Of a stretch of 64,000 nt of DNA, positions 16,120 through 37,235 are shown in pieces (position 1 is the stretch's first letter; each line of letters opens with the position of its first letter). The translations under genes and the position numbers were made by a program. Source of the stretch: Marinobacterium mangrovicola (GTDB lineage Bacteria > Pseudomonadota > Gammaproteobacteria > Pseudomonadales > Balneatricaceae); the NCBI RefSeq assembly GCF_004339595.1, contig NZ_SMFU01000008.1, positions 744,001 through 808,000 on the forward strand, written 5' to 3'. A model generated the notes under the pieces. It was given only the letters and a program-made list of their open reading frames with translations, ran no database searches and was not told the DNA's origin.

Positions 16120-16120
16120 T

Positions 16121-19828: not shown

Positions 19829-19980
19829 GCGAAAATACTCATGTATTAAATCCATTTAATTGAAAGCAACTAATCACACCTTCACGGAAAAATCCTAACC
19901 CAGGATTTATTTTAGGTCTAGTTAATTGGCATGTAATTAAAACGCAGATAAATAATTTTTGAGTGTGCGTGTTGGGTGGC

Positions 19981-20000
19981 GTCGATAAACTTTACATCTG
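19981..20000 (+). promoter_or_regulatory. Candidate PrsR upstream activator site
   Basis: GTCGATAAACTTTACATCTG lies 90 bases (start to GG) before the sigma-54-like element at 20070. A copy with 16 of 20 identical bases lies before the second sigma-54-like element at 37107-37126. Position and repetition fit an enhancer for the PrsR activator; binding is inference. Confidence 0.4.
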
Positions 20001-20069
20001 GAACCAATTCGTTGACTGTATCGTCAGATAAAAGTCTAAACTATTGATTTATATTGAGAATCTATGTGT

Positions 20070-20085
20070 TGGCCTGATTTTGGCT
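20070..20085 (+). promoter_or_regulatory. Sigma-54 (-24/-12) promoter of the sorted-protein gene
   Basis: TTGGCCTGATTTTGGCT places GG (20071-20072) and GC (20083-20084) exactly 12 bases apart, with TGGC and T.GCT matching the RpoN consensus. A start near 20096 would leave a leader of about 98 bases before the ATG at 20194. Confidence 0.5.
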
Positions 20086-20193
20086 ACTAGCGAACCGCGC
20101 GGGTCTGGTTGTCAACGCGGATAAGTAAATTAAGTGCCCCTTTAAATTAAAAGGCGAGCACATGGACTTGGATTGAATGGAGAACTTCCTATT

Positions 20194-20703
20194 ATGAATG
20201 CTACAAAAATATTGATGGCTTGCCTGGCTATGCTATCTGCCGTTGCTGTAATGCCAGCGCACTCTGCAACGCTGGAATACGGCTCACCGCTATCCTTTAA
20301 TTTTCAGGGTGATGATCCGTTGGGTGATTATGAGGAAGTGACGTGGGATTTTGATGTCGCAGACTCGAATCTTCAAACCATTGACTTCACTGGCTGGGTT
20401 AACCCAACAGAACGTTATGATAGCGCGACTGGTGAGTTTGTATCGGTCGTCGTTAACTGGGTTCTCGAGTTTTCAGCCGATAGTGGCTTGAGCTGGAGTG
20501 TAATTGATAGCCTCACAAGTACTGATCTCGTTAACGAAGCCTCAGTTTTAGCGTCTCTTGGTACTTATCGAGTCACAGTTTTTGGAGAATTCGATCAGGC
20601 TCATTTGCGAGTATCTGCTGTCCCGATTCCCGCAGCAGCCCTTCTTTTTGGAACCGCCCTCATAGGCTTTGCCGGTTTTCAGGCACGTCGTAAGGTTTCG
20701 TAA
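20194..20703 (+). CDS. VPIPA-tailed (VPLPA/PEP-CTERM type) exosortase substrate
   Basis: A 169-residue secreted protein with an N-terminal signal peptide (hydrophobic 5-22, cleavage about AHSA) and a tripartite C-terminal sorting signal: VPIPA at 143-147, a hydrophobic helix to about 162 and the basic end RRK. The motif fits the VPLPA-CTERM variant thought to be handled by XrtD-type exosortases, and such an enzyme is encoded at 37669. The middle is beta-rich and acidic (WDFDVADSNLQTIDFTG, WVLEFSADSGLSWSVID), resembling no enzyme. It is expected to be cut, anchored or released at the surface with the exopolysaccharide. ATG at 20194 is taken instead of an upstream TTG; GGAG lies 11 bases before it. 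It has its own sigma-54-like promoter and terminator. Confidence 0.82.
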   Translation: MNATKILMACLAMLSAVAVMPAHSATLEYGSPLSFNFQGDDPLGDYEEVTWDFDVADSNLQTIDFTGWVNPTERYDSATGEFVSVVVNWVLEFSADSGLSWSVIDSLTSTDLVNEASVLASLGTYRVTVFGEFDQAHLRVSAVPIPAAALLFGTALIGFAGFQARRKVS

Positions 20704-20730
20704 GACGAAGAGGTAACTGGAATAGAGTAC

Positions 20731-20774
20731 GAAATACAAGGAAGGGCGGAGCTCTTCTTTGTATTTCTATTTTT
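20731..20774 (+). terminator. Intrinsic terminator after the sorted-protein gene
   Basis: GAAATACAAGGAAG pairs with CTTCTTTGTATTTC (14 pairs with one G-U) and is followed by TATTTTTC. It isolates the sorted-protein gene from the EPS operon that follows. Confidence 0.8.
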
Positions 20775-20815
20775 CAGAGTCGGCTGACAGGCGCTGCAAA
20801 AAATATGGGAAAGTA

Positions 20816-20832
20816 ATGAGCTATAAGCTCAT
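20816..20832. promoter_or_regulatory. Palindrome before the EPS operon
   Basis: ATGAGCT-ATA-AGCTCAT is a perfect 7-bp inverted repeat 31 bases before the first EPS gene. It could be an operator or a leader hairpin. GTCGACAAAC at 20841-20850 just after it partly resembles the start of the candidate PrsR element. Confidence 0.4.
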
Positions 20833-20862
20833 CTATACGCGTCGACAAACGTTGGATTTAAT

Positions 20863-22242
20863 ATGGAAAATTTTGCAGGACGCTCATTGCTCCAACGTCG
20901 AAGCCCGATATCAGTAATGATTCAGGCTGGAGTGGATGTGACAGTTGTCATGTTAGTCTTCTGGTTAGTAGCTACTGCCTTTGACGGCAATTTTCTACTT
21001 AATCATCTTATCGTACTTCTATTGACGTTGATTTTGATGGCCCTTGTTTTCGATAACCAGGGGATCTACCGGCGCAACCGCGGTTATCTAAAAAAATCCT
21101 GGGATCTTATTCGGTCTTGGACGGTTGTAGCGACTATCTCACTCTCTATCGTATACCTGCTTAACATCTTGGATGACATCGACCGAGAGATGCTGATTGC
21201 ATTCTTTGGTGGTTCGATATTGCTTCAGATGTTAAGTCACATACTCTTTAGGCTCCTATCAACAAGAATCAAAGCAGAAAGCGTGCGTGTGGCTACGATT
21301 GGCAAGTCGTCCAGCACAGCGTCAATTGCGCTTAAAATTGGTAACAATCCATGGCTTAAAGAGAAGGTGGTCGGCACCTATCTTGTAGATGCCGGTCCAG
21401 AACTTGGTTCGAGTCACGGACTGAGTGAAAAGGTGATTACTGAGTTAAAAGAAAGTGGTGTGTCCAAGATCTATCTGTCCCTTCCTCTGAAGGACACTCA
21501 CTTGGTTGATACATTGTATAGCAAGTTAGCGCCCTACAACTTTGATGTTCTTTGGGTGCCTGACTTCGGCTCTCTCAAGTTGATTAATCCGAGCTTTCGC
21601 GAACTATCGGGCTCTCCTGTTATATCTCTTTCAGAAACCCCTCTTTTAGGTGTGCACCGTCTAAAGAAAGATCTCTTTGACCGAATTTTCGCCGTTTTTG
21701 CTCTAATGATTTTCGCGCCAGTAATGATAGCCACTGCTGTCGCTGTGCGTCTTTCGTCGCCTGGACCTGTTTTCTATCGGCAGAATCGAACGGGGTGGGA
21801 CGGGCGGATATTCCAGATTTGGAAGTTCAGGAGTATGCGGGTCCATCAGCCAGATGAAGGTTTTATTCAGCAAGCGACGAAAGGGGATCCAAGAATTACC
21901 AGTGTTGGTCGCTTTATTCGAAAAACCAGTATCGATGAGCTTCCTCAGCTGTTCAATGTTCTTGACGGCAGCATGTCGATTGTTGGCCCTCGTCCTCACG
22001 CAATAGAACATGACCAGCATTATTCAAAAAAAGTGGATGCATATATGGACCGGCACCGAATTAAGCCAGGTATCACTGGCCTGGCACAAGTGCGTGGTTA
22101 CCGAGGCGAAACAGAAACAGACGAGCTGATGCGAAAACGTGTTGAAGCCGACGTTGAATACATCAACAGCTGGTCGTTGTGGTTGGATCTAGAAATTATC
22201 TTTCGAACGGTTTTAACGCTATTTAACAAGCGCGCTTATTAG
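20863..22242 (+). CDS. Undecaprenyl-phosphate sugar phosphotransferase (priming enzyme)
   Basis: A 459-residue integral membrane enzyme of the WbaP/WcaJ family, the type called the XrtA/PEP-CTERM-system sugar transferase. Four to five N-terminal helices (18-125) precede a nucleotide-binding-like region (ATIGKSSSTASIAL), a further helix at about 270-290, and the catalytic C-terminus: PGPVFYRQNRTGWDGRIFQIWKFRSM, TSIDELPQLFNVLDGSMSIVGPRPH, HRIKPGITGLAQVRGYRGET. It moves a sugar 1-phosphate, probably glucose or galactose, from the UDP-sugar onto undecaprenyl phosphate and so starts each repeat unit. First gene of a long plus-strand operon that continues with Wzz and the tyrosine kinase. Confidence 0.92.
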   Translation: MENFAGRSLLQRRSPISVMIQAGVDVTVVMLVFWLVATAFDGNFLLNHLIVLLLTLILMALVFDNQGIYRRNRGYLKKSWDLIRSWTVVATISLSIVYLLNILDDIDREMLIAFFGGSILLQMLSHILFRLLSTRIKAESVRVATIGKSSSTASIALKIGNNPWLKEKVVGTYLVDAGPELGSSHGLSEKVITELKESGVSKIYLSLPLKDTHLVDTLYSKLAPYNFDVLWVPDFGSLKLINPSFRELSGSPVISLSETPLLGVHRLKKDLFDRIFAVFALMIFAPVMIATAVAVRLSSPGPVFYRQNRTGWDGRIFQIWKFRSMRVHQPDEGFIQQATKGDPRITSVGRFIRKTSIDELPQLFNVLDGSMSIVGPRPHAIEHDQHYSKKVDAYMDRHRIKPGITGLAQVRGYRGETETDELMRKRVEADVEYINSWSLWLDLEIIFRTVLTLFNKRAY

Positions 22243-22255
22243 GGTCGACTGCCAT

Positions 22256-23800
22256 ATGTATAGTGATGAAGAAGAACAGGGTATTGAAATTCCAAAGAAA
22301 TACTTGGCGGCCTTCGACCGTTATAAGGTTTTGGTGATTATAGCGATATTCGCACTGGCGACGATAGCTTTCATTGTTTCTAACTTAATACCCGCTGTTT
22401 ATCGCTCTCAGTCTGTGGTTTTGGTCGAAACTCAGCAGATTCCGGATGATCTTGTTAGATCTACCGTTACTTCTATTGCGGCTGAGCGTATACAAATTAT
22501 CAAGCAGCGTGTCATGACTCGCGCAAAGCTTTTGGAAGTTGTGAACAAGTATCCTTCGTTGACTGAAAGTAGAGAAGGGAAAACAGTATCCGGGTTCCTT
22601 ACCGAGATCCGAAACGATATCACCGTAGAGTTGATTAACAGTGATAACCGTAGACGTAACGCAACTGTAATAGCATTTCGTGTGGGCTTTGATGCAAAAG
22701 ACCCAACGGTGGCACAGAATGTCGCTAATGATTTAGTTACCTTGTTTCTAAATGAGAATGTTACAGCGAGAACCGAGAGGGCATCTGAAACTACAAGCTT
22801 TTTAGAATCCCAGGCCACGAAAATGGAGCATCGCTTATCTGAAATTGAGCAGGCAATAGCGGAATTTAAAGCGAAAAATAAAGATGCCCTTCCCGAACAC
22901 CTAGATCTTTACGTATCTATGTTAGACCGGGCTAAAACTACCGCAGCGGAATTGCAGAGAGAGATTCAGTCAACAAAAAATCAGATAGATCTGCTGGAAA
23001 TTCAATTGGCAGAGCAGCCAGTCAATCGAAGTTTAACCGACCCAGTCTTGGCAAAGCTTCGTGCCGATTATCAAGCGTTACGAACCAAGTATACCGATAC
23101 TCATCCCGATGTTGTTAGCATGAAAACGCAGCTTGAATCGTATCGTCCAGTAACAACAAGCTTGGAAAATCATAGTAACAATCTAATTGAAGAACGTGTT
23201 GAGGAAGGAAAACTAAGAATTGTATCTTTAGAAAACGAAATTAGTGAAAAAAAAATAGAGATCGAAGATTTAGAGACAAAGATTATAAAAATTCCTCAGG
23301 TTGAGCGCGGCTTAGTCTCCTTAAATCGAGACTATAACGTCATCAAAGCACAATACGATAAAGTAGTTGCTAATACAATGCAGGCTCAGATGGCTGAGAG
23401 TCTAGAACAGGGTAGTAAAGCAGAGAGGTTCTCGATACTTGAGCCTGCTCAATTACCGGACCGGCCGTTTAGTCCGGATCGTAAAAAGTTGTTGGTTGCA
23501 GGAGTAGGCGGGAGTCTCGCAATCCCGTTAGGGCTTGTGTTATTGATCGGCTTTATGGATCGAAGCATAAGGGATGAGAAAGAGTTGGAAAAGCTAATCG
23601 GAGCTCCCCCGATAGCTGTTGTTGGCTATATAGAAACTAAAGCCGAAGTGTTAGCGAAAAAGAAAAAATTAAGTCGAACCCTATTGGTTATATTTGTTCT
23701 TTCTATAGGGGGGGCTTTAGCGGTTCATCTTCTATATATGCCTTTAGATGTTATTTATTTGAAAATTATTTTTAAATTATCCAATTTAACGGGGGCTTAA
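22256..23800 (+). CDS. Wzz/GNVR polysaccharide chain-length protein
   Basis: A 514-residue polysaccharide co-polymerase of the inner membrane. Helix 1 is at about 29-48; a Wzz domain (VIVSNLIPAVYRSQSVVLVE) follows; a long coiled-coil stretch runs from about 180 to 370 (LESQATKMEHRLSEIEQAIAEF, VEEGKLRIVSLENEISEKKIEIEDLE); a GNVR-like tail (IPQVERGLVSLNRDYNVIKAQYDKV) and the proline-rich LPDRPFSPDRKKLL precede helix 2 at about 408-428, and a third hydrophobic segment lies near 475-495. It lacks the fused kinase of Wzc; the kinase is the next gene, three bases on. It sets polymer length and couples to export. Confidence 0.88.
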   Translation: MYSDEEEQGIEIPKKYLAAFDRYKVLVIIAIFALATIAFIVSNLIPAVYRSQSVVLVETQQIPDDLVRSTVTSIAAERIQIIKQRVMTRAKLLEVVNKYPSLTESREGKTVSGFLTEIRNDITVELINSDNRRRNATVIAFRVGFDAKDPTVAQNVANDLVTLFLNENVTARTERASETTSFLESQATKMEHRLSEIEQAIAEFKAKNKDALPEHLDLYVSMLDRAKTTAAELQREIQSTKNQIDLLEIQLAEQPVNRSLTDPVLAKLRADYQALRTKYTDTHPDVVSMKTQLESYRPVTTSLENHSNNLIEERVEEGKLRIVSLENEISEKKIEIEDLETKIIKIPQVERGLVSLNRDYNVIKAQYDKVVANTMQAQMAESLEQGSKAERFSILEPAQLPDRPFSPDRKKLLVAGVGGSLAIPLGLVLLIGFMDRSIRDEKELEKLIGAPPIAVVGYIETKAEVLAKKKKLSRTLLVIFVLSIGGALAVHLLYMPLDVIYLKIIFKLSNLTGA

Positions 23801-23802
23801 TA

Positions 23803-24630
23803 ATGTCGACTTCAATTATAGACGTTGTTAATAAGGCCGCAAAAAAAGATCCAGACATAGTTGAAAAAAACTTAGTATCCGGCTCTAGAGATACAGTAAT
23901 AGACAATTCAAGAAAAGAAAATATAAAACCTATCGAATACACAACGACAAGAGTCATCAACGTTGATCGGTCTGCAATGTTGGAAAATCGGGTTGTATCT
24001 TTAGAGAAAGAGAACCCGGATTCGATCGCATTCTCTATGTTGAGAACAAAAGTTCTCTCTGAGATGAGAGCTAATGACTGGACTAGTTTGGCTATTTCTG
24101 CGCCCACTCCTGGCGCAGGAAAGTCTCTAGTAGCGGTTAACTTAGCTGTCAGCATTGCCTTGGAAGCAAACCAAACGGTATTGCTTGTAGATATGGATTT
24201 GAGGCAACCATCAATACACCGTTACTTCGGTATTGAACCCAAGTACGGGATAACGGATCACCTTGGAAGCAATGTATCTTTAGGTGAGATTATGTTTAAT
24301 CCCGGTATCGAACGTATATCTGTAATTCCAGGACGTAAGAGGATAGTAAACTCATCCGAAACGTTAGCAAGCTTAAAAGTAAAAGAGTTAGTGGCAGAAC
24401 TTAAGTCACGATATCAGAAGCGGCTAGTTATCTTCGATTTACCACCATATCTTGTTTCCGACGACGCTCTTGTATTTTTACCCTATGTTGACTGTTCTTT
24501 GTTGGTAGTTGAGAGCGGCAAAAATAACAAATATGAAATAGAAGAATCGTTGAGTATGGCGAAGGTCAGACCTCTTATTGGAACAATCTTGAATAAAGAT
24601 AGAGCTTTTAAAAAGATTAACGTTTATTAG
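23803..24630 (+). CDS. CpsD/CapB-type tyrosine autokinase (BY-kinase)
   Basis: A 275-residue cytoplasmic kinase. After a variable 80-residue lead, it has the BY-kinase set: SAPTPGAGKSLVAVNLA (Walker A), VLLVDMDLRQPSIHRYFG (Walker A'), and RLVIFDLPPYLVSDDALVFLPYVD (Walker B). With the separate Wzz partner it forms the split counterpart of Wzc, cycling between phosphorylated and free forms to control polymerisation. The C-terminal tyrosine cluster is reduced to a last-residue Tyr, so substrate tyrosines may lie elsewhere. GGGGG stands about seven bases before the ATG. This class is usual in exosortase-linked EPS loci. Confidence 0.88.
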   Translation: MSTSIIDVVNKAAKKDPDIVEKNLVSGSRDTVIDNSRKENIKPIEYTTTRVINVDRSAMLENRVVSLEKENPDSIAFSMLRTKVLSEMRANDWTSLAISAPTPGAGKSLVAVNLAVSIALEANQTVLLVDMDLRQPSIHRYFGIEPKYGITDHLGSNVSLGEIMFNPGIERISVIPGRKRIVNSSETLASLKVKELVAELKSRYQKRLVIFDLPPYLVSDDALVFLPYVDCSLLVVESGKNNKYEIEESLSMAKVRPLIGTILNKDRAFKKINVY

Positions 24631-24641
24631 GGGCTAACATT

Positions 24642-25946
24642 TTGAAACTAGTAGCTTTATTAGTGCTTATATTATTAGCCAGGCCGCTTCTAGCTGATAC
24701 GACATACTATATCGACCCTACAAATGGAAGCGATGAAAATAACGGTAGCAAAGATTATCCTTGGAAAACGATACAGGGTTCTATAAAAAACTCTCATGTA
24801 GCCTTCGGGAAATGGAAACTGCCATATAATGCCGATAGGCCGAGAGTCGTTTCTGTTTCTAGTGTTGAGAGCGAAAGCATTACACTCATATTAAAACCTG
24901 GATTCTACGGTAGGCTTGAAATTATCTCTAAGATTTTTGAAAAAGAATTAACTATAAAATCTGAATATCCATATAAAGCAGTATTCGATTCGGTTTATAT
25001 AAAGTCTTCGGGGAATATTAAAATAGAGGGCTTAACAATAACCCGAAGCGTTACGCATGATGAAAGTAAACATAATTTATTTAGCGCTGTTACACACGAT
25101 TGGACAGGACCGTCGAAGAATATAACGCTCAAAAATAGTCTCCTATATTCTAAATTTGGTAGAGATCAATGGAGCGTAGATGATTGGCTTAAATTTGATC
25201 TGGTGAAAGGGATCGATTCTGATGCTGAACAATCAAGGTATATAGGTAATATTATAATAAACACGTCATTTGCCGTGACTATATCTGGAAAAGACACCCT
25301 TGTTAAAGAAAATGTTATCAACGGATTCAGGGGAGATGGGATCAGGAGTATTGGGGATGATAATACCTTTGAAAGTAATGTGATAATTAATTCATTCGAT
25401 GTCGATGAAAATCATGATGATGGTTTTCAGGCCTGGGTTAAAAGAAATGAAGAGGCGATTAGGCGAAATCGACTGATTAATAATGTGATAGTAGCACGGA
25501 CGGATTCTAATGGGACTTTATATTCAAATAACCAGGGAATAGGGTTGTTTGATGGTATGTACGATAATTGGGAAATAAGAGATAACTTTGTAGTAGTAAA
25601 TCATTGGCATGGATTGTCGATGTACGGAATTACCAACTCTGAGATCATGCGAAATGTTGTTTTTGATCCGTTTGAAGACAGAGTAGGTCCTGCTGAAATA
25701 AGAGTTATGCCGGCAAAAAATGGAGATGCGAGCGCGAATAATATTCTACGTAAAAATTGTGCTCATAATTATATAGGTATTGATAGTACAGAAATAAGAA
25801 CTAATAAGAAAATTAACTATCCCACTAATATAGACGCGTTGAACCCAGGCCATCTAGGGATTAAAGAAACGACTAGTTACGATGAAGTAATATCTTTATT
25901 AAAGGACTACCGTAAAAAAGTAGAGGCTCATTGCGATGGACGATAA
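24642..25946 (+). CDS. Secreted right-handed beta-helix protein
   Basis: A 434-residue protein with a signal peptide (LVALLVLILLARPLLA) then TTYYIDPTNGSDENNGSKDYPWKTIQ, the opening typical of pectate-lyase-like beta-helix proteins, and parallel-helix rungs (IKIEGLTITRSVTHD, SRYIGNIIINTS, GDGIRSIGDDNTFESNVIINS, GIGLFDGMYDNWEIRDNFVVVNHWHGLSMYGI). It could be a lyase or a polymer-binding protein acting in the periplasm on the exopolysaccharide, for trimming or release. No catalytic residues can be fixed. The TTG start at 24642 follows AGGGGC at seven bases. It overlaps the next glycosyltransferase by 11 bases. Confidence 0.75.
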   Translation: MKLVALLVLILLARPLLADTTYYIDPTNGSDENNGSKDYPWKTIQGSIKNSHVAFGKWKLPYNADRPRVVSVSSVESESITLILKPGFYGRLEIISKIFEKELTIKSEYPYKAVFDSVYIKSSGNIKIEGLTITRSVTHDESKHNLFSAVTHDWTGPSKNITLKNSLLYSKFGRDQWSVDDWLKFDLVKGIDSDAEQSRYIGNIIINTSFAVTISGKDTLVKENVINGFRGDGIRSIGDDNTFESNVIINSFDVDENHDDGFQAWVKRNEEAIRRNRLINNVIVARTDSNGTLYSNNQGIGLFDGMYDNWEIRDNFVVVNHWHGLSMYGITNSEIMRNVVFDPFEDRVGPAEIRVMPAKNGDASANNILRKNCAHNYIGIDSTEIRTNKKINYPTNIDALNPGHLGIKETTSYDEVISLLKDYRKKVEAHCDGR

Positions 25947-26871
25947 ATTAGTAATCGTGATGATCGCCGCCTACAACGCGGAAGAATATATTTGTGAAAC
26001 AATCGAGAGCATACTGGTTCAGTCATATAAAAACTTTAAAGTCGTTATATGCGATGACTGTAGTACGGACCAGACAGTAAATAAAATAGAAGGTTTTAAA
26101 GATAGGCGTATAGAGCTTATTAAAAATAGTGAAAATCTAGGGAAGTCAGTATGCCTAAATAAAATAATCGAAGCTACGGATGGCGATTTTTATATGATGC
26201 AGGATGCTGATGATACATCGCATCCAGACAGAATTAAATTATTAGTTAGTTTCATCGAATTAAATCCGTCAGTAGATCTTATAATGTCGGGGTATCAATT
26301 AATTATAGATAACGAAAGTTGTTGTCCTCGTGGTACGGATTTAACTATTAATGAATGCCAGGAACTTGTAGCCCAATATAAAATGCCCTCTCATGATCCT
26401 ACTATGTTTATAAAAGCCGTCGTGGTTTCTGAGGTTAGGTTCGATCGCACTTTAAGGATAGGTCAAGGATTGGATTTTATCTTAAGAGTAGGCGAAAAAT
26501 ATAATATATCTGTTATTGAAAACGTTCTTTACAACTATCGAGTACATCCATCTTCGATCACGAGGATGAAAAGAAAAAAACGTAATACAATGATTTCAAA
26601 AATTAAACTAGAAGCTTACGAAAGACGGAAAGTAAATTCTAAAATACCAATAATAAATTATCCGCATGCTAATAGTGACAGTGATAAATATAATAATTTA
26701 TACGTACACTTTATAGAATCAGTACGTTACCTTCTGCAACGAAGAAAAATTAAAAATGCGTTTTGTGTTTCTTTTAAAAGTATAAGGTATGGAAATTTTG
26801 TTATGATAAATTATTACAAGCCACTCGCTATAGCTATAATTAATTTAGGTTTGATTAGATGCTACCCCTAA
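25936..26871 (+). CDS. Family 2 glycosyltransferase
   Basis: A 311-residue GT-A enzyme. VIVMIAAYNAEEYICETIESILVQSYKNFKVVICDDCSTD is the family 2 start; MMQDADDTSHPDRI carries the DxD-type metal site (about residues 92-95). HDPTMFIKA and a later GQGLDFILRVGEKYNISVI complete the domain. It should add one sugar to the lipid-linked repeat unit on the cytoplasmic face; donor and linkage cannot be told. It overlaps both neighbours, so it is part of the same transcript. Composition is about as AT-rich as anything in the island. Confidence 0.85.
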   Translation: MDDKLVIVMIAAYNAEEYICETIESILVQSYKNFKVVICDDCSTDQTVNKIEGFKDRRIELIKNSENLGKSVCLNKIIEATDGDFYMMQDADDTSHPDRIKLLVSFIELNPSVDLIMSGYQLIIDNESCCPRGTDLTINECQELVAQYKMPSHDPTMFIKAVVVSEVRFDRTLRIGQGLDFILRVGEKYNISVIENVLYNYRVHPSSITRMKRKKRNTMISKIKLEAYERRKVNSKIPIINYPHANSDSDKYNNLYVHFIESVRYLLQRRKIKNAFCVSFKSIRYGNFVMINYYKPLAIAIINLGLIRCYP

Positions 26872-27284
26872 TTATACGGAAAGATTTTAGACATTTATTA
26901 CTGAAGCTTAGAACTAAGTACTTTAATGTCTTATGGAAGATGAATATATCTGACACTGCTCTGATCTCTTTTAAAGCGAAACTTGATCGAACGAATCCTA
27001 AAGGTATAACTATTGGAGAATACACGCATATAGCTTTTGGTGCTGTTTTACTTACACATGATATGTCTAGGAATCTTCATAGTAAGATTAAGATTGGTTC
27101 AAATTGTTTTATTGGAGCTAACAGCATCATACTACCCGGCGTTGAAATTAACGATGGTTGTATAATAGCAGCGGGAAGTGTTGTAACGAAATCTATTAGT
27201 CCTAATTCTATAGTGGCTGGTAACCCAGCCAAGGTCATACGAACAGGTATTAAAGTTGGAAAATATGGCGTTATTAAAAAATAG
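26859..27284 (+). CDS. Hexapeptide-repeat acyltransferase (LbetaH fold)
   Basis: A 141-residue enzyme made of left-handed beta-helix turns (GITIGEYTHIAFGAVLLTHDM, IKIGSNCFIGANSIILPGVEIN, CIIAAGSVVTKSI) with the NPAK ending of WbbJ/NodL-type acetyltransferases (SIVAGNPAKVIRTG). The His in LLTHDMSRN is the likely catalytic base. It probably O-acetylates a sugar of the polymer using acetyl-CoA. It overlaps the glycosyltransferase before and the polymerase after. Confidence 0.82.
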   Translation: MLPLIIRKDFRHLLLKLRTKYFNVLWKMNISDTALISFKAKLDRTNPKGITIGEYTHIAFGAVLLTHDMSRNLHSKIKIGSNCFIGANSIILPGVEINDGCIIAAGSVVTKSISPNSIVAGNPAKVIRTGIKVGKYGVIKK

Positions 27285-28509
27285 CCAATTTAATCGAACG
27301 ATTGCTTTTTTATTTGTGATTTCTTGTTTCGTTCCCGCAAGTCTGCATATTGATTTTTACGGCCTACGATTAGAATTCTATCGTTTTTTATTAATTATAT
27401 TCATGCTTTCTAATCTAGGCGTTATTTTTAAATCCGTTGATAACAAAGAAAATAGATTACTGGCATTATTTTGTTTATTAGCCGCACTTTCTTACATATT
27501 AAATAATGGATTATCCTACATTGTTAGTGGGATAATATTGTTTTTAGAGGTATACGTTGTTTTCATCTTGGCTAGATATTGTTTCGAAAATTCATATTTA
27601 CAATATAAGTTAATAAAATTAGTTGGTGTGATCTTTATCTTCCTGGTGCCTTTTGCTTTAAAAGAGGCTAATGATGGAATAAGAACACTGCAATTGCTCG
27701 GAGCCCAGATATCGGGAACAGAGACTTCTAGTTACCTTGGCGATAATTATTTCAGATACGGTATTCATAGAAGTAGTACAGTCTTTAGTCATCCGATTCT
27801 ATACGGGGTAATAGCGGCTGCTTTTATACCTATATTTATGGTTTCAACTAAAGGTTTATTTCGTGTTGTTACAGTATTTTCATTGTTAGTTGGAGTCGTC
27901 GTTTCAGTTTCAAGTGTCGCTTTTATGATGTGTGCGGTATTTTTGGTCGCTTATATTTTAAAAAGAATATCAGCATACTACAGAAACATATATAGAGATT
28001 TTATACGGACTGGGATAATACTCTTTTTTATACTGTCAATTCTATCAAATAGAGGTCCGATACTTTTCTTCATACAAACGTTTACGTTGAATAGTAATAC
28101 CGCTTTCACGAGATATCAGCAATGGCAATTCGCAATGGACGATATACTGAGAAATCCATTTTTTGGATACGGGTTCGGAGAATGGACAAGACCTCATTGG
28201 TTAGCTCCTAGTATTGACAGCTATTGGTTAAACTTAACGTTAGAAAATGGTATTACGGCGTTATTAATTATATTTTTGTTCTGTGTAGTTGTTTTGAAAA
28301 AAATGATGAGGGCGTATTCTTATAACCGCAATGCGAAAATATATGGTTATATAATCGCGCTAATATCATTATATATCGCCGCATTTACGGTCGATTATTT
28401 TGACCGCGCTCAAATATTTTTCTATTTTATATCCGGATTTTCATTGGGATTACTTACATCCGAGCATAAAAAATCATTAAAGAACGTTAATGCAAAGACC
28501 GTAGAGTAA
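27265..28509 (+). CDS. wzy: O-antigen polymerase/ligase-like protein (Wzy candidate)
   Basis: A 414-residue protein with ten to twelve membrane helices and a large periplasmic loop (residues about 135-175), followed by HRSSTVFSHPILYGVIAAAFIP and, later, NPFFGYGFGEW, a pattern typical of Wzy_C/O-antigen ligase proteins. In a Wzx/Wzy-type cluster it would join repeat units in the periplasm. I use the ATG at 27265, not the TTG three codons upstream. Sequence conservation in this family is low, so the call rests on topology, the two motifs and the neighbours (Wzz before, Wzx after). Confidence 0.75.
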   Translation: MALLKNSQFNRTIAFLFVISCFVPASLHIDFYGLRLEFYRFLLIIFMLSNLGVIFKSVDNKENRLLALFCLLAALSYILNNGLSYIVSGIILFLEVYVVFILARYCFENSYLQYKLIKLVGVIFIFLVPFALKEANDGIRTLQLLGAQISGTETSSYLGDNYFRYGIHRSSTVFSHPILYGVIAAAFIPIFMVSTKGLFRVVTVFSLLVGVVVSVSSVAFMMCAVFLVAYILKRISAYYRNIYRDFIRTGIILFFILSILSNRGPILFFIQTFTLNSNTAFTRYQQWQFAMDDILRNPFFGYGFGEWTRPHWLAPSIDSYWLNLTLENGITALLIIFLFCVVVLKKMMRAYSYNRNAKIYGYIIALISLYIAAFTVDYFDRAQIFFYFISGFSLGLLTSEHKKSLKNVNAKTVE

Positions 28510-28531
28510 AAACCAAACGAACGAGCAGATT

Positions 28532-30037: not shown

Positions 30038-30475
30038 CGGTCACTTAAATTTTTTGTTAAAAGGTTATTAATTCATGGCTTTGGCCTTATCGCCTAATTG
30101 CAAATTGAATTCAATATTGAAGGTGTTAACTAAGCGAACAGTAATCTCACATGCGTTGTGCGTGCTGCCTACGTATTTAAGCAATCAAATGTGGTTCGCT
30201 AGCTTAAAAAAAAGTCCAATCTCGACACTTAGGTTAGAAGTAGTTGCAGATAGTAGGCTGAGGATATGGGGCGAGAAGGTACGTTTTTTCAACGCCTGGC
30301 TGGGATGAATTGATGTTTAGGGGGGCTACCATAATAAAAAGAAGGGGATGGCTTCGACATTAACTGAAATTGGGTATGGGGCGTCCGTGCGTAAGCAATA
30401 TATTTTCGTTTGCGTCCCCTGATAGTGATCCGGCGTTGCCGGAGGTGATTTTACTTAAGTATATAGGGAAGCTAT
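30038..30475. other. Intergenic gap inside the EPS operon
   Basis: A 438-base stretch. One 77-codon open frame (30075-30308 plus) starts with ATG but has no recognisable domain or good ribosome binding site, so I do not call it as a gene. A small CCGGC-GTT-GCCGG hairpin lies at about 30430-30442. The gap may mark a recombination seam between two blocks of sugar genes. Confidence 0.35.
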
Positions 30476-31621
30476 ATGGATGTGGCGATTCTAACCCAGC
30501 CGCTGGGGCATAACTATGGCGGCCTGTTACAGGCCTATGCACTTCAATTTGTTCTCGGAACCTACAAGGTTAATTACATCACAATCGACCGGCTTAAAAA
30601 CGAGTGCTCCGCATTTGAAACCATAAAACATAGATTGAGAGAAACAAAAGAAATAGTTAGAGGAAGAAGGAAATACTTTTTTTCTAATAAAAGAAAAAAC
30701 CTCGTTTTAAAAGAACTTATTCGATTTAAGAAAGAACGTATTCACCTATCGATTCCAATCACCAGCGAATCAGGCTTACGGGATTATTTTAAAAATAGGA
30801 ATTTTCATGCAGTAATCGTTGGTAGTGATCAGGTGTGGAGGCCGCGTTATTCTCCAAGTATTTTGAATTTTTTTCTTGATTTCTTAGATGATATTGATTG
30901 TAACGCCAAGAAAGTATCTTACGCTGCTTCTTTCGGAGTCGATTGTTGGGAATACGATGTCAATTTGTCGCTGCGTTGCAAAGAATTATTAGAAAATTTT
31001 AATGCGGTTTCTGTAAGAGAAAAAAGCGCTATCGAGCTATGTAGCGAATATCTTAGTAAACACAGCACACTTGTGTTAGATCCAACTTTGCTTCTTGATC
31101 CAGATGATTACTTATCGCTAGTACCCGAAGCGAAGGCTAGTAGAGAATACGATATCGTCTCATATATATTAGATTCTAGTGATGTTAAGTATGGAGTAGA
31201 AGAATTTATAGCTAATAAATTGAATGCGTCTATCTACTCACTTAAGCCTGATTCTGATCCAAATCATATTTCAATGGTAGATACCGAAAATTATCCTTGG
31301 CCTAGTGTAGAAGAATGGATTAATGCGTTTGCTAATAGTCGTTTTATCCTAACGGATTCATTTCATGGCACCGTATTTGCGATAATTTTTAACAAGCCAT
31401 TCATCGCGCTGGGTAATGTGGATAGAGGTCTTTCCCGTTTTCAATCGTTATTGTCTCTGTTTGGACTAGAGAACCGGTTGGTTACTGATGTATCTGACGT
31501 ATCTGAGAGGCTACTTAGTACTGATCCCGATTGGGCTTTCGTAAACCAGCAGCGCGAGGAGCTTAAAGAACAGAGTTTAAGTTTTTTATTAGAAAGCATT
31601 GGAGCTATTAGAGATGAATGA
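30476..31621 (+). CDS. Polysaccharide pyruvyl transferase family protein
   Basis: A 381-residue protein of the WcaK/CsaB family. The start DVAILTQPLGHNYGGLLQAYAL, the central AVIVGSDQVWRPRYSPSILNFFLDFL, SYAASFGVD, SVREKSAIELCSEY, LDPTLLLDPDDYLSL, and the C-terminal ILTDSFHGTVFAIIFNKPFIAL are the family landmarks; the His in SFHGT is the conserved one. It would transfer a pyruvyl ketal from phosphoenolpyruvate onto a sugar, giving the polymer a negative charge. It precedes two glycosyltransferases in tight overlap. A glycosyltransferase-like side branch of the family cannot be excluded. Confidence 0.85.
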   Translation: MDVAILTQPLGHNYGGLLQAYALQFVLGTYKVNYITIDRLKNECSAFETIKHRLRETKEIVRGRRKYFFSNKRKNLVLKELIRFKKERIHLSIPITSESGLRDYFKNRNFHAVIVGSDQVWRPRYSPSILNFFLDFLDDIDCNAKKVSYAASFGVDCWEYDVNLSLRCKELLENFNAVSVREKSAIELCSEYLSKHSTLVLDPTLLLDPDDYLSLVPEAKASREYDIVSYILDSSDVKYGVEEFIANKLNASIYSLKPDSDPNHISMVDTENYPWPSVEEWINAFANSRFILTDSFHGTVFAIIFNKPFIALGNVDRGLSRFQSLLSLFGLENRLVTDVSDVSERLLSTDPDWAFVNQQREELKEQSLSFLLESIGAIRDE

Positions 31622-32621
31622 TTCACCTCTAGTATCGATAATTGTACCGGTCTTTAATGCGAGTGAGAGCTTAGAGCATTCAGTAAATTCACTCCTAAAC
31701 CAATCCTACCGTTACCTAGAAATTATATTAATTAACGATGCTTCTACGGATTCTTCCATTTCGTTAATGAAAAAGTTAGCGGATAAAGATTCCCGAGTGG
31801 TATTAATAAATCTTCCTGTTAACGTTGGAGTTCATGGTGCAAGGATTGCCGGGCTTAGTCAGGCTAACGGCGAGTGGATTGGATTCCTTGACTCTGATGA
31901 CTATGCAAGACCAAGTATGTTTATGAATATGGTCCGAGCTGCTTGTTACTCTCAGGCGGATATAATCGTCTGCGGCTCTGATCGAGTCGATACTCAACGC
32001 CGTATCATCGCTAATAAAATTTCATTTAAAAAGTCTAAAGCTTTTAAAGAAAATGTCTTCGAAGATTTTTGTTCATTCAGGTTCGGAACGGGATCATTAT
32101 GGAATAAAATTTATAAAAAAAATGTGATTAAATCGATCACAGAAATAACATTTCCTTGGCGCCAGGAAATTAATGAGGATATGATAGTTAATGTGATGTG
32201 TTTTTTAAAAGCAAAAAGTGTTTACGTTTTATCAGATATCTTACACGAGTATGTTTATCGTGCTGAAAGTGTCACCTCTGAAATGTCAAACCCTTTCGCC
32301 TTCACGCAACTACTCAAGGCGTATCTTTTATCTGCACATATTGTAGGTGATTTAGATGTTTCTAAGCTACCTTACATTGCTGATTTGTATCGAACTCAAT
32401 TTTCTTGGCCTGAGTACAAAATCAATGATTTAGAACTATTAGAAGATTTTTCAGAAGAATTTAAAGTTTCACTCGATATCTTCCCTCAGGCTAAGTCTAT
32501 TATTCTACCCATGGTAATTGCTAGACCTGATATAGATATCAGCTTCAAGCAAGCTGTTCGGATCGCCTATAAGAGAGTTAAAATACGGTTGTTAAATCTA
32601 TTACCGACGATTAAGGAGTGA
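31614..32621 (+). CDS. Family 2 glycosyltransferase
   Basis: A 335-residue GT-A enzyme: PLVSIIVPVFNASESLEHSVNSLLNQSYRYLEIILINDASTD opens the domain, and WIGFLDSDDYARPSMF holds the DSDD metal site near residue 92. The ATG at 31614 overlaps the pyruvyl transferase stop (ATGAATGA), a sign of coupled translation; a TTG five codons earlier is less likely. Residues 150-335 (FGTGSLWNKIYKKNVI, WRQEINEDMIVNVMCFLKA) resemble EpsE/WcaA-like enzymes that elongate the repeat unit. The sugar is not predictable. Confidence 0.85.
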   Translation: MNDSPLVSIIVPVFNASESLEHSVNSLLNQSYRYLEIILINDASTDSSISLMKKLADKDSRVVLINLPVNVGVHGARIAGLSQANGEWIGFLDSDDYARPSMFMNMVRAACYSQADIIVCGSDRVDTQRRIIANKISFKKSKAFKENVFEDFCSFRFGTGSLWNKIYKKNVIKSITEITFPWRQEINEDMIVNVMCFLKAKSVYVLSDILHEYVYRAESVTSEMSNPFAFTQLLKAYLLSAHIVGDLDVSKLPYIADLYRTQFSWPEYKINDLELLEDFSEEFKVSLDIFPQAKSIILPMVIARPDIDISFKQAVRIAYKRVKIRLLNLLPTIKE

Positions 32622-32623
32622 TC

Positions 32624-33460
32624 GTGTCAGTCATAGTCTCATTGACTTCCACCTCGACCAGGATGGAATTATTGAAATATACATTATTGTCATTGATGGA
32701 TCAGGATTATCCCGCGTTCAGAATTTATCTATCGCTATCTAAAGAGCCTTATCTTATCGATAGTGGAGTAAAGGTGTTACCGCCTTGGCTAAATGACATG
32801 GTTTCTATCGGAAAGTTAGAAGTGTATTGGGTAAAAAATACAGGCCCCTATCGAAAATTATTACCCATCATTAATCAGGTAGAAGATGACGATCTTTTGG
32901 TTACTTGTGATGATGATGTTATTTACGGCAGGGGGTGGTTATCAAGTCTTATAGAGTCTGCGACAGAATATCCAAAACATGTGGTGTGTGGGCGAGGGAG
33001 GACGGTTAAAAAATCTATATTTAGTTCTAGGCCGCAAACTTATCTTCACTGGCCGCTTGCGCATGGGGGGGCGACGGGGTTTGATATTGTCCCAACCGGT
33101 GTTGGTGGTGTTGTTTATAACAAGAATCTCTTGGATATGGATTTCATTAATAAAAAAGAATTTATGGATTTGGCGCCACGTCAAGATGATCTTTGGTTTA
33201 ATAAGGCTCGAGAGTTACTCAATACTCCAGTACATATTTCGGAAAAGGCAGGAAGTTTTTTATTCCCAATAAATGCGCCTGGTGCTTTATTTGACAATAA
33301 TGCATTTAGTAAAAAATCATCTAAGCGATTCCGTATCATCTCGGCTTTACAGGAAAAAGCTCAAGGTCTAGCCGGCAGGTTAGGTCTACCTATTTGTTCA
33401 AATGACGTAGCATATTCAAATATTAATCGGTATGTAAAGAAAAGGGGCTCGCAAATTTAA
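32624..33460 (+). CDS. Glycosyltransferase-like protein (GT-A fold)
   Basis: A protein of 278 residues beginning SVIVSLTSTSTRMELLKYTLLSLMDQDYPAFRIYLSLSKE, with a metal site DDDLLVTCDDDVIYGRGWLSSLI near residue 93, as in GT-A transferases. SAGG-like positions are replaced by GATGFDIVPTGVGGVVYNKNLL. I prefer the GTG at 32624 because AAGGAG ends six bases before it; a GTG two codons earlier would touch that site. It closes the second block of EPS sugar genes; the next genes run the other way. Which sugar it moves is unknown. Confidence 0.72.
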   Translation: MSVIVSLTSTSTRMELLKYTLLSLMDQDYPAFRIYLSLSKEPYLIDSGVKVLPPWLNDMVSIGKLEVYWVKNTGPYRKLLPIINQVEDDDLLVTCDDDVIYGRGWLSSLIESATEYPKHVVCGRGRTVKKSIFSSRPQTYLHWPLAHGGATGFDIVPTGVGGVVYNKNLLDMDFINKKEFMDLAPRQDDLWFNKARELLNTPVHISEKAGSFLFPINAPGALFDNNAFSKKSSKRFRIISALQEKAQGLAGRLGLPICSNDVAYSNINRYVKKRGSQI

Positions 33461-33920
33461 TGGCCTCTTAGGTTAAGGGTTGTTTGGCTAATAAGTGCGA
33501 CACAGATCGTTCAACTATTGAAAAATAGCCAGCTCCTTACAGTGGTACGTTTTTTCTCGCCCTAATCGCTGGTCTGTTGATCTAGAAAAACCGTATGGAT
33601 ATAGGTTCTTCTTACATAGGTTAACAGCGGAGGTAAATCCCTCGGCTAAAAAATCTCGCGCCGAGGGATCGAGAGCTTTCCATGGATAACTAACTCTCGT
33701 CAAATCCACCAGAAAGCCTTACCGATCCGTAAATATAAGGTTCTTGGTAGTACGGTCAGGAGAAGTTGGTTCCCGGGGAGCGTTTAAGAGCACTGATCGA
33801 TGCGAACTAAGCCATAACTATCAATAGTCGTTATATAGTATCGATATTAATAATAGGTTATTAAAACTACGAGGTTGAGCAAAATTTAATATACGAAACA
33901 TTATGTATTATAGAGGAGGA
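33461..33920. other. Convergent gap with strong hairpin
   Basis: About 460 bases between convergent genes. TCCCTCGGC (33638-33646) pairs perfectly with GCCGAGGGA (33660-33668) around a 13-base AT-rich loop; with no T run it is a terminator-like hairpin, perhaps bidirectional. A 64-codon minus-strand frame (33515-33709) covers it and shows no family traits, so it is not called. Nothing else is visible. Confidence 0.45.
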
Positions 33921-35003
33921 TCATATTTTCCCGTTAAGAAAAATTGGTAATATTCGTTTATCAGATACCATGTGCTTATGAATTAATGTTGTGATTATAA
34001 AGGTAATAACAGCACAGAAAGCTATGAATATATTTTCGTTTTCGAAAAAGGATTTAAATGATAATGCTATCGCATATATGACTAGGTAATGCATCATATA
34101 TATAGTGTAGGAAGCACTAGCGTAGAAGCTTATAATATTACTATGTTTTGGTAAGCTTCTCTCACTTAGATAAAATAATATATTTGCGATCGAATAAGAT
34201 GTTATTGCATATACCATCAGTTCTGCAGATTTTAAAAATACGTTATTAAATGGGTTGTTCTCATTAAATACGATGACTATTGTGGTTAGACAAGCGAATA
34301 AACACCAGCTTGGCGTGTGGAAAATTTTGTAAGCTCCTTTATATTTGAAAAGAATAAAACCAAAAAGATAGTATGGGAATTGATATAATATCTCTCTTAA
34401 TAGGAAGCTAAATTCAAAGTTAAAAAAGTTTACGATTATTTGCGTATAAAATATTCTTAGCAGTACTGAGAGTGTCGCTAATGATAAAATTAAGATAACT
34501 ATGTAGATGTTGTTTTTATCGTCAAGGTCTTTTATGTACTGTTTCAGAAAATTATTTGATGCAAGCTTATCAATCGGACGCAAGAAAAATGCATAAAAGA
34601 TAAGAGGAAACAAAAACCAAAGGTGAAGGTGCCAGACCATAGGTCCGTTGGCGGCATGATTATTTTTAAAGTATAAATTTAAGGTATATTTTTCGATACC
34701 TTCATTATGATACAAGTACACTAACTGGTTTGTGATCGGATTAAGAATTATAAGTCCAAAAAATAGAGGAATTCCAATTCGAATTAACCTGTTTTTAATC
34801 GCGATTGAATACCCGTATTTGCTACAAGTTAACGCTGTCAGAAAACCGGAAATTATAAAAAAAGTTTCCATACGGAATAAGCTAGAGATATAAAATATCG
34901 CGCTGTAAAATGGTGATGGTTGAAGGGCGAGTGTTGCCGAATGAACTATTATACCTCCTATCATTAGTGCCGCTCGGAGGAAGTCGATATGTGCGTATCG
35001 CAT
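33921..35003 (-). CDS. Acyltransferase family 3 membrane protein
   Basis: A 360-residue protein with ten membrane helices. HIDFLRAALMIGGIIVHSATL at the N-terminus carries the conserved Arg and His, and RMETFFIISGFLTAL is the second family motif; WHLHLWFLFPLIFYAF follows. Such enzymes move acetyl or succinyl groups across the membrane onto sugars of EPS, O-antigen or glucans. The ATG at 35003 is used, three codons inside the longest frame, because AAGG lies ten bases before it. It is the last gene of a three-gene minus-strand block with two glycosyltransferases. Confidence 0.85.
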   Translation of the reverse strand: MRYAHIDFLRAALMIGGIIVHSATLALQPSPFYSAIFYISSLFRMETFFIISGFLTALTCSKYGYSIAIKNRLIRIGIPLFFGLIILNPITNQLVYLYHNEGIEKYTLNLYFKNNHAANGPMVWHLHLWFLFPLIFYAFFLRPIDKLASNNFLKQYIKDLDDKNNIYIVILILSLATLSVLLRIFYTQIIVNFFNFEFSFLLREILYQFPYYLFGFILFKYKGAYKIFHTPSWCLFACLTTIVIVFNENNPFNNVFLKSAELMVYAITSYSIANILFYLSERSLPKHSNIISFYASASYTIYMMHYLVIYAIALSFKSFFENENIFIAFCAVITFIITTLIHKHMVSDKRILPIFLNGKI

Positions 35004-35066
35004 CAAATTCAAACCTTTGATATATAGAATCGGCAGTAAAGACTAGCTTATTAATTCAGTAGCGGG

Positions 35067-36017
35067 TTAGTCTTCTCCTATGAAGCTTGGTTTTCCCCTT
35101 TTATTTATAATGCCTGAGTACCAGCCTGATAAAGCTATTTTAAATGAATTAATATTTCCTTTTACGAAATAGCGAAAGAATATCAATGACAAAGCCAGAG
35201 GTGACAAGAATATTTTTGCGAATTTATGGTTTAAATCGCTCATCATTAATATTTTATTTCGTTCGTCTAGAAAAATAGATAGCTTTGATCGGCTTTTGGG
35301 GGCGGCTCCTGATCCGGTTGTTGTTCCTTGAATATGGTGAACTATCGAATTTTTAGAAAAACCTATTTTCATACCCTGATTTAACGCTCTTATACACCAT
35401 TCGATCTCCTCGCAATAGAGAAAATAGTCTTCTCTCATTAGGCCGACCGTTTCTACGAATTTTTTACTTATTAGTATTGAAGCACCAGTAATGTAGTTCA
35501 TTTTACTTTCTACTTTTCTTTCATCAATGTGTGTATCGATGCTAAAACCATTACCGATGGAGATGGGTCTTATGCTGTAGATACTCCAATAGCCTCCTAA
35601 GGATTGAATTTTTCCATCAGATTTCAGAAGTACTCCACCTACTGCGTCATAATTACTAACGGTTAGTTTGTATACAAGAGCCTTCAAAGCGTCGGGTTCA
35701 GGTCTCGTATCGGGATTGAGCACCCACCATGCATCAAAACCATTCGCTTCCTTTATGCCCATGTTTACTCCCGCTGCAAAGCCCCCGTTTTGTCCGGCGT
35801 TAACCAGGTGGATCACTTGGGCTCCAGCACTAAAAGCCTTTAAACGCTCTTGCAGAGATACGAAAGAATCATATCCACCGTTTTCAATGATGAAAACTTC
35901 ATAGTTTGTATATGAGGATTCGCTCAGAGATGTTAGGCAGTTTATTATATCATCCGGATTTCTATATCCGACGATGATAATAGCTATAGCTAGTTGATGC
36001 TGGTTATTTAATGTCAT
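35067..36017 (-). CDS. Family 2 glycosyltransferase (rhamnosyltransferase-like)
   Basis: A 316-residue GT-A enzyme: LAIAIIIVGYRNPDDIINCLTSLSESSY, NGGFAAGVNMGIKEANG, and WWVLNPDTRPEPDALKALV (metal site NPDT) are the marks of the WbbL/RfbF-like group that often uses dTDP-rhamnose. YFLYCEEIEWCIRALNQG is the acceptor-side acidic motif. It overlaps the upstream glycosyltransferase gene by 14 bases. C-terminal hydrophobic stretch (ILMMSDLNHKFAKIFLSPLALSLIFF) may attach it to the membrane. Donor specificity is inference from family. Confidence 0.82.
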   Translation of the reverse strand: MTLNNQHQLAIAIIIVGYRNPDDIINCLTSLSESSYTNYEVFIIENGGYDSFVSLQERLKAFSAGAQVIHLVNAGQNGGFAAGVNMGIKEANGFDAWWVLNPDTRPEPDALKALVYKLTVSNYDAVGGVLLKSDGKIQSLGGYWSIYSIRPISIGNGFSIDTHIDERKVESKMNYITGASILISKKFVETVGLMREDYFLYCEEIEWCIRALNQGMKIGFSKNSIVHHIQGTTTGSGAAPKSRSKLSIFLDERNKILMMSDLNHKFAKIFLSPLALSLIFFRYFVKGNINSFKIALSGWYSGIINKRGKPSFIGED

Positions 36018-36918
36018 CTATTATAAGTCTCAGTCCGTCATAAAATCGCCAAAGACGTATTTTATATAGAGTTTGTGTCGCAGATAATTTCGATTCAAGT
36101 TTCACTAAAGATTTGCAGTTGAAAATTTTAGGTGTATGAATGACTGCTGAGATAGGTAATAGTAAAGTTCTTAAAAACCAGCGTAGCTTACCGTTAGGCT
36201 TAGTTAGAATTAATGCATAGGTTTCTCTATTTAATCGGCGCCATTTTATCTTCAATTCATCCCAGTTTTTTCTTGGCGGATGCTCTATGATCGAAAGGCC
36301 AGCGTAGCCTAGGATATAGCCTTTTTGAGTAGCACGATGACACCATTCCTTATCTTCTGATACGCCGGTTTTAAAGCCACCAACTTTTTTAAATAATTCA
36401 CGTTTGCAAAATATACCAGCTGTTACGGTAAAGCCTTCCTCTTCAATATAGCGCTGGTTATTAAATGCAAAGCAAAGCTCAAATGCTTCTGCACCGCTTA
36501 GTGCTCGAGCTTCTGGTGTTGTTACCACGACTTTGCAACCCGCAATGTCGCAATGGTGTAGGCTATCTATTCCTTTATTTAACCAATCCTGATGAGGTAC
36601 ACAGTCGCTGTCTATGAAGGCGAGGGTTGGGGCGGATGCTACCTCTACTCCTCCATTTCTCGCGGGTCCCGCTCCTTTCTGTTTTACGGTTAATACCTTA
36701 TCAACCAGGTGAGCGATTGGGGCAAAACGGGTGTTGAAGTCAGGACTGTCGTTGTCTGCTAGAACTAATTCGTACTCAGACCTTGGTGTATCTAGTTTGT
36801 TAAGCGCTTCAAGGCATTGCCGCAAAGACTCAACGTCGTCGTAATGGGGAATTATGACGCTGACTCTTGGTGAAGTTGATGGACTAATCATCTCTGGATT
36901 CCAGCGCTTCCTGCGCAT
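36004..36918 (-). CDS. Family 2 glycosyltransferase
   Basis: A 304-residue GT-A enzyme starting RVSVIIPHYDDVESLRQCLEALNKLDTPRSEYELVLADN, with the metal site in APTLAFIDSDCVPHQDWL (DSD) and a C-terminal GGFKTGVSEDKEWCHRATQKGY acidic motif. First gene of the minus-strand block and divergent from the exosortase gene 750 bases away. Start at 36918 is supported by an AGG six bases before; an ATG nine codons in (36891) is the alternative. The gene starts only about 140 bases from TGTCGACA palindromes at 37055 and 37106. Confidence 0.82.
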   Translation of the reverse strand: MRRKRWNPEMISPSTSPRVSVIIPHYDDVESLRQCLEALNKLDTPRSEYELVLADNDSPDFNTRFAPIAHLVDKVLTVKQKGAGPARNGGVEVASAPTLAFIDSDCVPHQDWLNKGIDSLHHCDIAGCKVVVTTPEARALSGAEAFELCFAFNNQRYIEEEGFTVTAGIFCKRELFKKVGGFKTGVSEDKEWCHRATQKGYILGYAGLSIIEHPPRKNWDELKIKWRRLNRETYALILTKPNGKLRWFLRTLLLPISAVIHTPKIFNCKSLVKLESKLSATQTLYKIRLWRFYDGLRLIIDDIK

Positions 36919-37055
36919 CGAGTACCTTATATAGCTCTCCTTAGCAAATAGTATACCAATAGGATCTAACTCGCAGTGGGATACGAAACACTGTCACCTT
37001 TTATGCGTTTTTCCCCTGGGAGAGATAGGTATACCGATCCCTTTTGGCAGCGGCT

Positions 37056-37126
37056 GTCGACATACTTAACAGTTCTTAAACGCATCAGCGATCGAATGTT
37101 AATAATGTCGACAGAAATTACATCTG
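37056..37126 (+). promoter_or_regulatory. Pair of candidate PrsR sites
   Basis: GTCGACAGAAATTACATCTG at 37107-37126 shares 16 of 20 bases with the element at 19981. A weaker copy, GTCGACATACTTAACAG, begins at 37056, 51 bases (about five helical turns) upstream. The better copy begins 113 bases before the GG of the sigma-54-like element, against 90 in the first case; the difference of 23 is close to two helical turns. Confidence 0.4.
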
Positions 37127-37218
37127 CGTCAGTATTTTTTATGGATTCCTTCAGCTTTTCACCTGGGTTAATGGATTTTAATTGGCTATCTCATTGTTTT
37201 AAAAGAGAAATATTTGTT

Positions 37219-37235
37219 TGGAGTGTTTTTTGCTT
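37219..37235 (+). promoter_or_regulatory. Sigma-54 (-24/-12) element upstream of the exosortase gene
   Basis: TTTGGAGTGTTTTTTGCTT has GG (37220-37221) and GC (37232-37233) 12 bases apart with perfect TTGG and TTGCTT ends. The predicted start, near 37245, would give a leader of about 420 bases before the exosortase gene, unusually long. Confidence 0.5.

Follow-up and report, generated by a model that had tools for sequence, protein, structure and literature searches.

A stretch of 64,000 nucleotides of the Marinobacterium mangrovicola genome (contig NZ_SMFU01000008.1, positions 744,001 to 808,000; hereafter the window) carries a short repeated element upstream of two sigma-54-type promoters, one ahead of the gene for a VPLPA-CTERM sorted protein and the other ahead of xrtD, which encodes the VPLPA-specific exosortase. 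Both elements are probably sites for the response regulator PrsR, the promoter at 20070 serving the VPLPA gene and that at 37219 serving xrtD together with a prsT-like and an ATPase-like gene. A preliminary description of the window had picked out the elements as 20-mers at 19981 and 37107, identical at 16 of 20 positions and followed by GG-N10-GC at 20070 and 37219, all of which is exactly as claimed. The features concerned are given below, box scores being from a matrix built from other genomes, with the window sites excluded from training, unless the own-site matrix is named.

19980..19996, plus strand, predicted PrsR box CGTCGATAAACTTTACA, score 21.1, the highest in the window
20069..20085, plus strand, sigma-54 -24/-12 element TTGGCCTGATTTTGGCT, GG-N10-GC at 20070, spacer 72 from the box at 19980
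20194..20703, plus strand, VPLPA-CTERM sorted protein, TIGR03370 26.5 bits (cut-off 25.35)
37055..37071, plus strand, predicted PrsR box TGTCGACATACTTAACA, score 17.3, spacer 146
37097..37113, minus strand, overlapping predicted PrsR box TGTCGACATTATTAACA, score 17.3, an exact box match
37106..37122, plus strand, predicted PrsR box TGTCGACAGAAATTACA, score 15.1, spacer 95
37127..37143, plus strand, weak box CGTCAGTATTTTTTATG, score 8.1 (own-site matrix), spacer 74
37218..37234, plus strand, sigma-54 -24/-12 element TTGGAGTGTTTTTTGCT, GG-N10-GC at 37219
37245..37668, plus strand, predicted 424-nucleotide (nt) leader from the predicted transcription start to xrtD
37669..39255, plus strand, xrtD, TIGR04152 553.1 bits (cut-off 400)

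The conserved unit is 17 bp long, approximately YGTCGAN5WTWACA, and lies at 19980-19996 and 37106-37122. The 20-mers both exist, but the TCTG with which they end is not conserved in other members, and the 17-bp unit is the better description. A PrsR/sigma-54 regulon of PEP-CTERM genes has been known since 2006 and, as far as the part of that work drawn on here describes it (Haft et al. 2006, PMC1569441), consists of motif 1, 17 nt long with TTTACA at its end and sometimes repeated, a spacer with a mean of 62.8 (standard deviation 10.6, range 32-92) and motif 2, likewise 17 nt long and patterned as a sigma-54 -24/-12 element, lying 71 nt (23-221) ahead of PEP-CTERM genes (99 of 167 in Proteobacteria). 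A few sites lay ahead of other genes, and PrsR was proposed as the motif 1 binder. Judged by that written description, the 20-mers are evidently motif 1 plus four trailing bases unconserved elsewhere. The TTTACA ending is exact at 19980 and appears as the variants ATTACA at 37106 and TTAACA at 37055. The last of these had been noticed as a weaker third copy beginning at 37056, which is true of the 20-mer only: judged as the 17-bp unit it outscores the copy at 37106 (17.3 against 15.1). The weak box at 37127 and the second of the boxes ahead of one chromosomal VPLPA gene both contain CGTCAGTATT.

The regulators required are encoded close by, with kinase and response regulator in tandem and overlapping:

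14074..16119, plus strand, prsK, histidine kinase, TIGR02916 368.9 bits (cut-off 300)
16100..17533, plus strand, prsR, NtrC-like response regulator, TIGR02915 554.4 bits (cut-off 502.6)

As the preliminary description had it, the PrsR translation contains GAFTGA; it also has a C-terminal helix-turn-helix region, and its likely ATG start is at 16121. The PrsR of the known regulon has receiver, sigma-54-interaction (GAFTGA) and Fis-type DNA-binding regions, and the protein here conforms to it by its TIGR02915 score and its GAFTGA. PrsR over the cut-off is present in single copy in the genome, as is RpoN, and XrtD is the sole exosortase match. Activators of the NtrC type act through DNA looping, an AAA+ domain contacting RpoN polymerase through GAFTGA and opening the promoter. 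We infer binding and transcription here along the same lines. PrsK would phosphorylate PrsR, which would bind the paired or repeated 17-bp boxes, partly palindromic in the form TGT...ACA, and through looping would meet RpoN polymerase at -24/-12 on the same face of the DNA; its GAFTGA-bearing AAA+ domain would then open the promoter, as is known for the NtrC family. The promoter at 20070 would drive the single gene for the VPLPA-CTERM surface protein, and that at 37219 would most likely drive xrtD, prsT and the ATPase gene by way of a long leader. If the latter does drive xrtD, substrate and sorting enzyme would therefore be raised together.

A VPLPA-CTERM search of the whole genome yielded three credible genes, one poor match being excluded; two are over the cut-off and one has 21.9 bits. 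Two of the three are neighbours on contig C5, outside the window:

C5 5799-6401, VPLPA gene, boxes at 5595 and 5639, sigma-54-like TTGGCGCAATATTTGTA at 5720 with GT for GC at -12
C5 6731-7303 (L121), VPLPA gene, boxes at 6550 and 6582, sigma-54-like TTGGCCTGTATTTTGCT at 6678

Boxes and a sigma-54-like element thus precede all three recognised VPLPA genes. A genome-wide motif search had been suggested, to be judged by whether it turned up more copies ahead of sorted-protein genes, and these two are such copies.

When the window was randomised into 200 first-order Markov copies, the 20-bp pattern, the 17-bp box and the box combined with GG-N10-GC occurred on average 0, 0.05 and 0.03 times, against 2, 5 and 3 observed, and the element is indeed rarer there than in the window. 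Since these patterns came from the window's own sites, tests outside it weigh more. The string GTCGAN6TTACATCTG has exactly two matches in the 4.98-Mb genome, both of them the reported sites, and the lone one-mismatch match to the 20-bp pattern sits inside a 319-codon open frame; if as many as two mismatches are tolerated, the pattern matches 24 times and a reversed control 11 times, so that weak matches carry little meaning. The genome has 12 exact 17-bp boxes: the window accounts for five and a C5 gene for one, and there are six others, five of these within open frames and one intergenic (C4:78365) with no sigma-54 element nearby (best score 4.3). When one mismatch is allowed, 161 matches stand against 76 in the control and such low-stringency counts are uninformative. 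The composite of box and GG-N10-GC is found at five places over two spacing ranges and at none in the reversed control: two are in the window, one is at a C5 gene and the others are at C7:51025 and, on the minus strand, C2:380177. Four box-like strings inside window genes, at 14876 (17.8), 19291 (16.4), 3629 (15.8) and, on the minus strand, 19233 (15.5), score comparably to or above some promoter boxes, but no sigma-54 score above 8.7 occurs within 31-180 nt on either side of these strings, against 10.0-11.3 at the two reported places. By sigma-54 score alone 20070 ranks ninth and 37219 eighteenth within the window; it is the pairing with boxes that singles them out.

In a survey of 390 genomes from the order, a strict composite, GTCGN6TTTACA-N48..78-TTGGCN7TTGC, is present at 45 places in 34 genomes and its reversed pattern at none. 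PrsR over the cut-off is encoded in 33 of these 34 genomes but in only 114 of the 390 overall (Fisher p 1.5e-18, uncorrected for relatedness), and the sole composite genome without it is 88% complete. Downstream genes were read at 30 of the 45 places: the next gene is PEP-CTERM-like in 24, 20 being recognised by regular expression and four more by eye, while the remaining six comprise three with a hydrophobic-basic tail lacking the motif and three unrecognised, one of them cut off at the locus end. That the composite goes with PrsR and with sorting-signal genes is, like the sites and their neighbours in the window, a direct observation. The spacings, for which the pattern allowed 48-78 bp, are 51-53 (four places), 60-64 (39) and 71 and 73 (two), three classes that lie one helical turn apart; several places are near-duplicates, so the 45 are not 45 independent events. 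With the phase taken from these places at 10.5 bp per turn, the window spacers of 72, 95 and 146 are off by 0.75, 1.25 and 0.25, and a C5 box with spacer 64 is off by 1.75.

The VPLPA promoter is by this evidence an ordinary member of the regulon. Its spacer of 72 is inside the published 32-92, and we infer a transcription start near 20096. From the end of the sigma-54 element at 20085 to the gene at 20194 is 108 nt; the open frame itself begins with TTG at 20173. A terminator-like hairpin and T-run (20731..20767, plus strand) lies between the VPLPA gene and the exopolysaccharide genes, which start from 20863, so that read-through into the latter is unlikely. To the left of 19980, a search for a divergent promoter toward the export gene gave best scores of only -0.4 (31-180 nt from the box) and 0.8 (19780-20000). 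Two of the in-gene box-like strings fall within 19217-19307, in the export-protein gene and upstream of an outer-membrane-protein gene; as a promoter the pair 19291/19233 was rejected, there being no good sigma-54 element.

On the xrtD side, three good boxes, two of them overlapping, stand upstream of the sigma-54 element. The latter (37218-37236) is identical at 17 of 19 positions to the VPLPA promoter of Amphritea OB2, whose own box has a spacer of 62; no other 19-mer in the window, whichever strand is read, exceeds 14 of 19. Alternative -24/-12 elements at 37183 and 37172 are weaker (4.5 and 4.6), and that at 37183 is off phase by 3.25. The region 37245-37700 outdoes all of 100 shuffles in folding (z -3.2), and a 6-bp hairpin comes first, where transcription is predicted to begin.

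A number of points weigh against the proposed regulon, and above all against its xrtD arm. The strict composite misses all the proposed promoters of this genome itself. Among 18 VPLPA-type loci of relatives, 15 have no box scoring over 13 within 400 nt, some of them in genomes that encode PrsR, and PrsR control of VPLPA genes is therefore not universal; at the three loci with a box the tails are VPEPA or VPVPG. XrtD loci have 23 box hits over 13, of which five, in four loci (L055, L077, L089, L117), precede a VPLPA-type gene and 18 do not. The C5 spacers of 79, 108 and 111 are off phase by 3.75-4.25, so that within this genome phasing is no more than a tendency: the helical relationship proposed in the preliminary description holds in spirit, in that the spacing classes are one turn apart, but not for every box. 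At xrtD, the nearest good box has a spacer of 95 against a published maximum of 92 (74 if the weak box at 37127 is counted), the element is 434 nt from the gene against a published maximum of 221, GGA replaces GGC in the sigma-54 element, and the downstream gene encodes an exosortase, not a sorted protein. No exosortase gene was apparent as the next gene among the 30 composite places read. The 600 nt upstream of xrtD in 66 loci, two of which offer less than 400 nt, contain no box over 13, a box in L090 that straddles the start codon being set aside. In six relatives of the same family with readable upstream sequence, two of which look like the same genes as L055 and L056, the best box before xrtD scores only 7.2; there an open frame ends 1-57 nt ahead of xrtD, and in Amphritea and Neptuniibacter xrtD directly follows pssDE. 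Across these loci the box goes with sorted-protein genes, and its placement ahead of xrtD here looks like a local gain. A lineage-specific control of xrtD by PrsR is nonetheless plausible, as is the co-induction of enzyme and sorted protein suggested earlier.

One alternative retains most credit, and we consider it unlikely but deserving of serious attention: that the VPLPA promoter alone is live, while the sites near xrtD once belonged to a VPLPA gene since lost, or now serve some other short transcript, xrtD being expressed from a nearer housekeeping promoter. The 434-nt AT-rich stretch ahead of xrtD (G+C 0.33 over 37235-37668) would suit it, as would the relatives in which xrtD sits close behind another gene without a box. 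So would a sigma-70-like 9/12 match at 37586-37615, although five such were found where 3.6 are expected, and a faint VPLPA-tail-like frame around 37534 (tblastn E 0.12). However, the best local score for a VPLPA relic in the leader was 32 where shuffles average 25.2, and 15 of 300 shuffles attained it; no terminator-like site was found in 36850-37720, and the boxes and sigma-54 element are intact with spacings in phase.

An activator other than PrsR might use the boxes, binding by PrsR being predicted and the genome encoding a second, weaker PrsR-like protein (405.9 bits, below the cut-off). We regard this as very improbable, given the presence of PrsR in nearly all composite genomes and beside the VPLPA gene here, and the binding of PEP-CTERM promoters by the Desulfovibrio PrsR as partly described in PMC3333781. 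That two AT-rich intergenic stretches resemble each other by chance, for which the in-gene box-like strings and unremarkable sigma-54 scores might speak, is scarcely credible, being already contradicted by the near-zero Markov and reversed controls, the third and fourth copies ahead of other VPLPA genes and the order-wide tests.

The preferred reading, in which both promoters answer to PrsR, may have an extension to the left of the xrtD boxes:

36943..36959, minus strand, possible divergent sigma-54-like element TTGGTATACTATTTGCT, score 10.0, facing a glycosyltransferase gene at 36004-36918

The boxes lie between this element and the xrtD promoter, with spacers of 95 and 137 to 36959, both in phase, and the elements at 37218 and 36959 are each 95 bp from the nearer outer box, in phase with the cluster. 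The cluster at 37055-37122 could conceivably be an enhancer shared by two divergent sigma-54 promoters, one driving xrtD-prsT-ATPase to the right and the other the glycosyltransferase/acyltransferase genes at 36918-33921 to the left. We think this rather doubtful; about twenty elements with such scores exist in the window, so the divergent promoter is a lead only. If true, PrsR would set, in this lineage alone, the sorting enzyme and polymer-modifying genes besides the sorted proteins, and the arrangement would have arisen after xrtD left a pssDE operon of the kind seen in Amphritea and Neptuniibacter.

The system as a whole is spread over the window, comprising PrsK, PrsR, an exopolysaccharide gene set, the VPLPA-CTERM protein, XrtD and a PrsT-like protein. 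The genes downstream of xrtD are:

39290..41671, plus strand, PrsT-like tetratricopeptide repeat protein, TIGR02917 278.9 bits (below the cut-off of 312.2)
41632..42588, plus strand, ATPase-like gene ("ATPase" being a label from sequence), found after PrsT in Amphritea and Neptuniibacter too

The order here (37669-43734) is xrtD-prsT-ATPase and then pssD-pssE, and in Amphritea and Neptuniibacter (L055, L056) it is pssD-pssE-xrtD-prsT-ATPase. Within the exopolysaccharide set, 24642-25946 is a 434-residue open frame without an NCBIfam match. Positions 13000-44000 contain no Rfam RNA at gathering scores. Seven genomes of the same genus yielded no VPLPA or XrtD match, so the system was either gained here or lost there. 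In two other gammaproteobacteria strong boxes lie at the prsK/prsR junction (L066, minus strand at 20482, score 19.1; L069, minus strand at 20364, score 20.3); they perhaps reflect autoregulation, and no good adjoining sigma-54 element was found in the direction read.

Compared with the regulon of Haft et al., as far as their account was drawn on, the window shares motif 1, the -24 (GG) and -12 (GC) elements, a sorted-protein gene, a large intergenic region and nearby PrsK and PrsR, together with a PrsT-like protein that falls below its family cut-off; unlike it, one promoter faces an exosortase gene, at the greater spacer and leader lengths given above. Only this placement looks unusual. The PrsR of Desulfovibrio vulgaris, DVUA0057, is likewise a PrsR-type regulator with PEP-CTERM targets: in the portion of PMC3333781 considered here, its five predicted targets were enriched in vitro by DNA-affinity-purified chip (DAP-chip), with further hits besides, and no VPLPA/XrtD system was covered. 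The Aquincola pepA gene, according to sections of PMC9850573, offers another parallel, being RpoN1-dependent with a start mapped at a -24/-12 promoter and a predicted enhancer upstream; prsT in that organism did not respond to rpoN1, whereas here the xrtD promoter has a prsT-like gene downstream of it. Zoogloea pepA requires PrsK-PrsR, as recounted in a passage of PMC9012009.

With these results a VPLPA/XrtD system becomes, from a reading of raw sequence, an instance of the PEP-CTERM regulon proposed in 2006. The quantised spacing, with all 45 composites in three classes, offers a simple rule by which PrsR targets could be sought more precisely. In the literature that we found, exosortase regulation is little studied, and xrtD is now a named case of an exosortase gene that may itself belong to the PrsR regulon.

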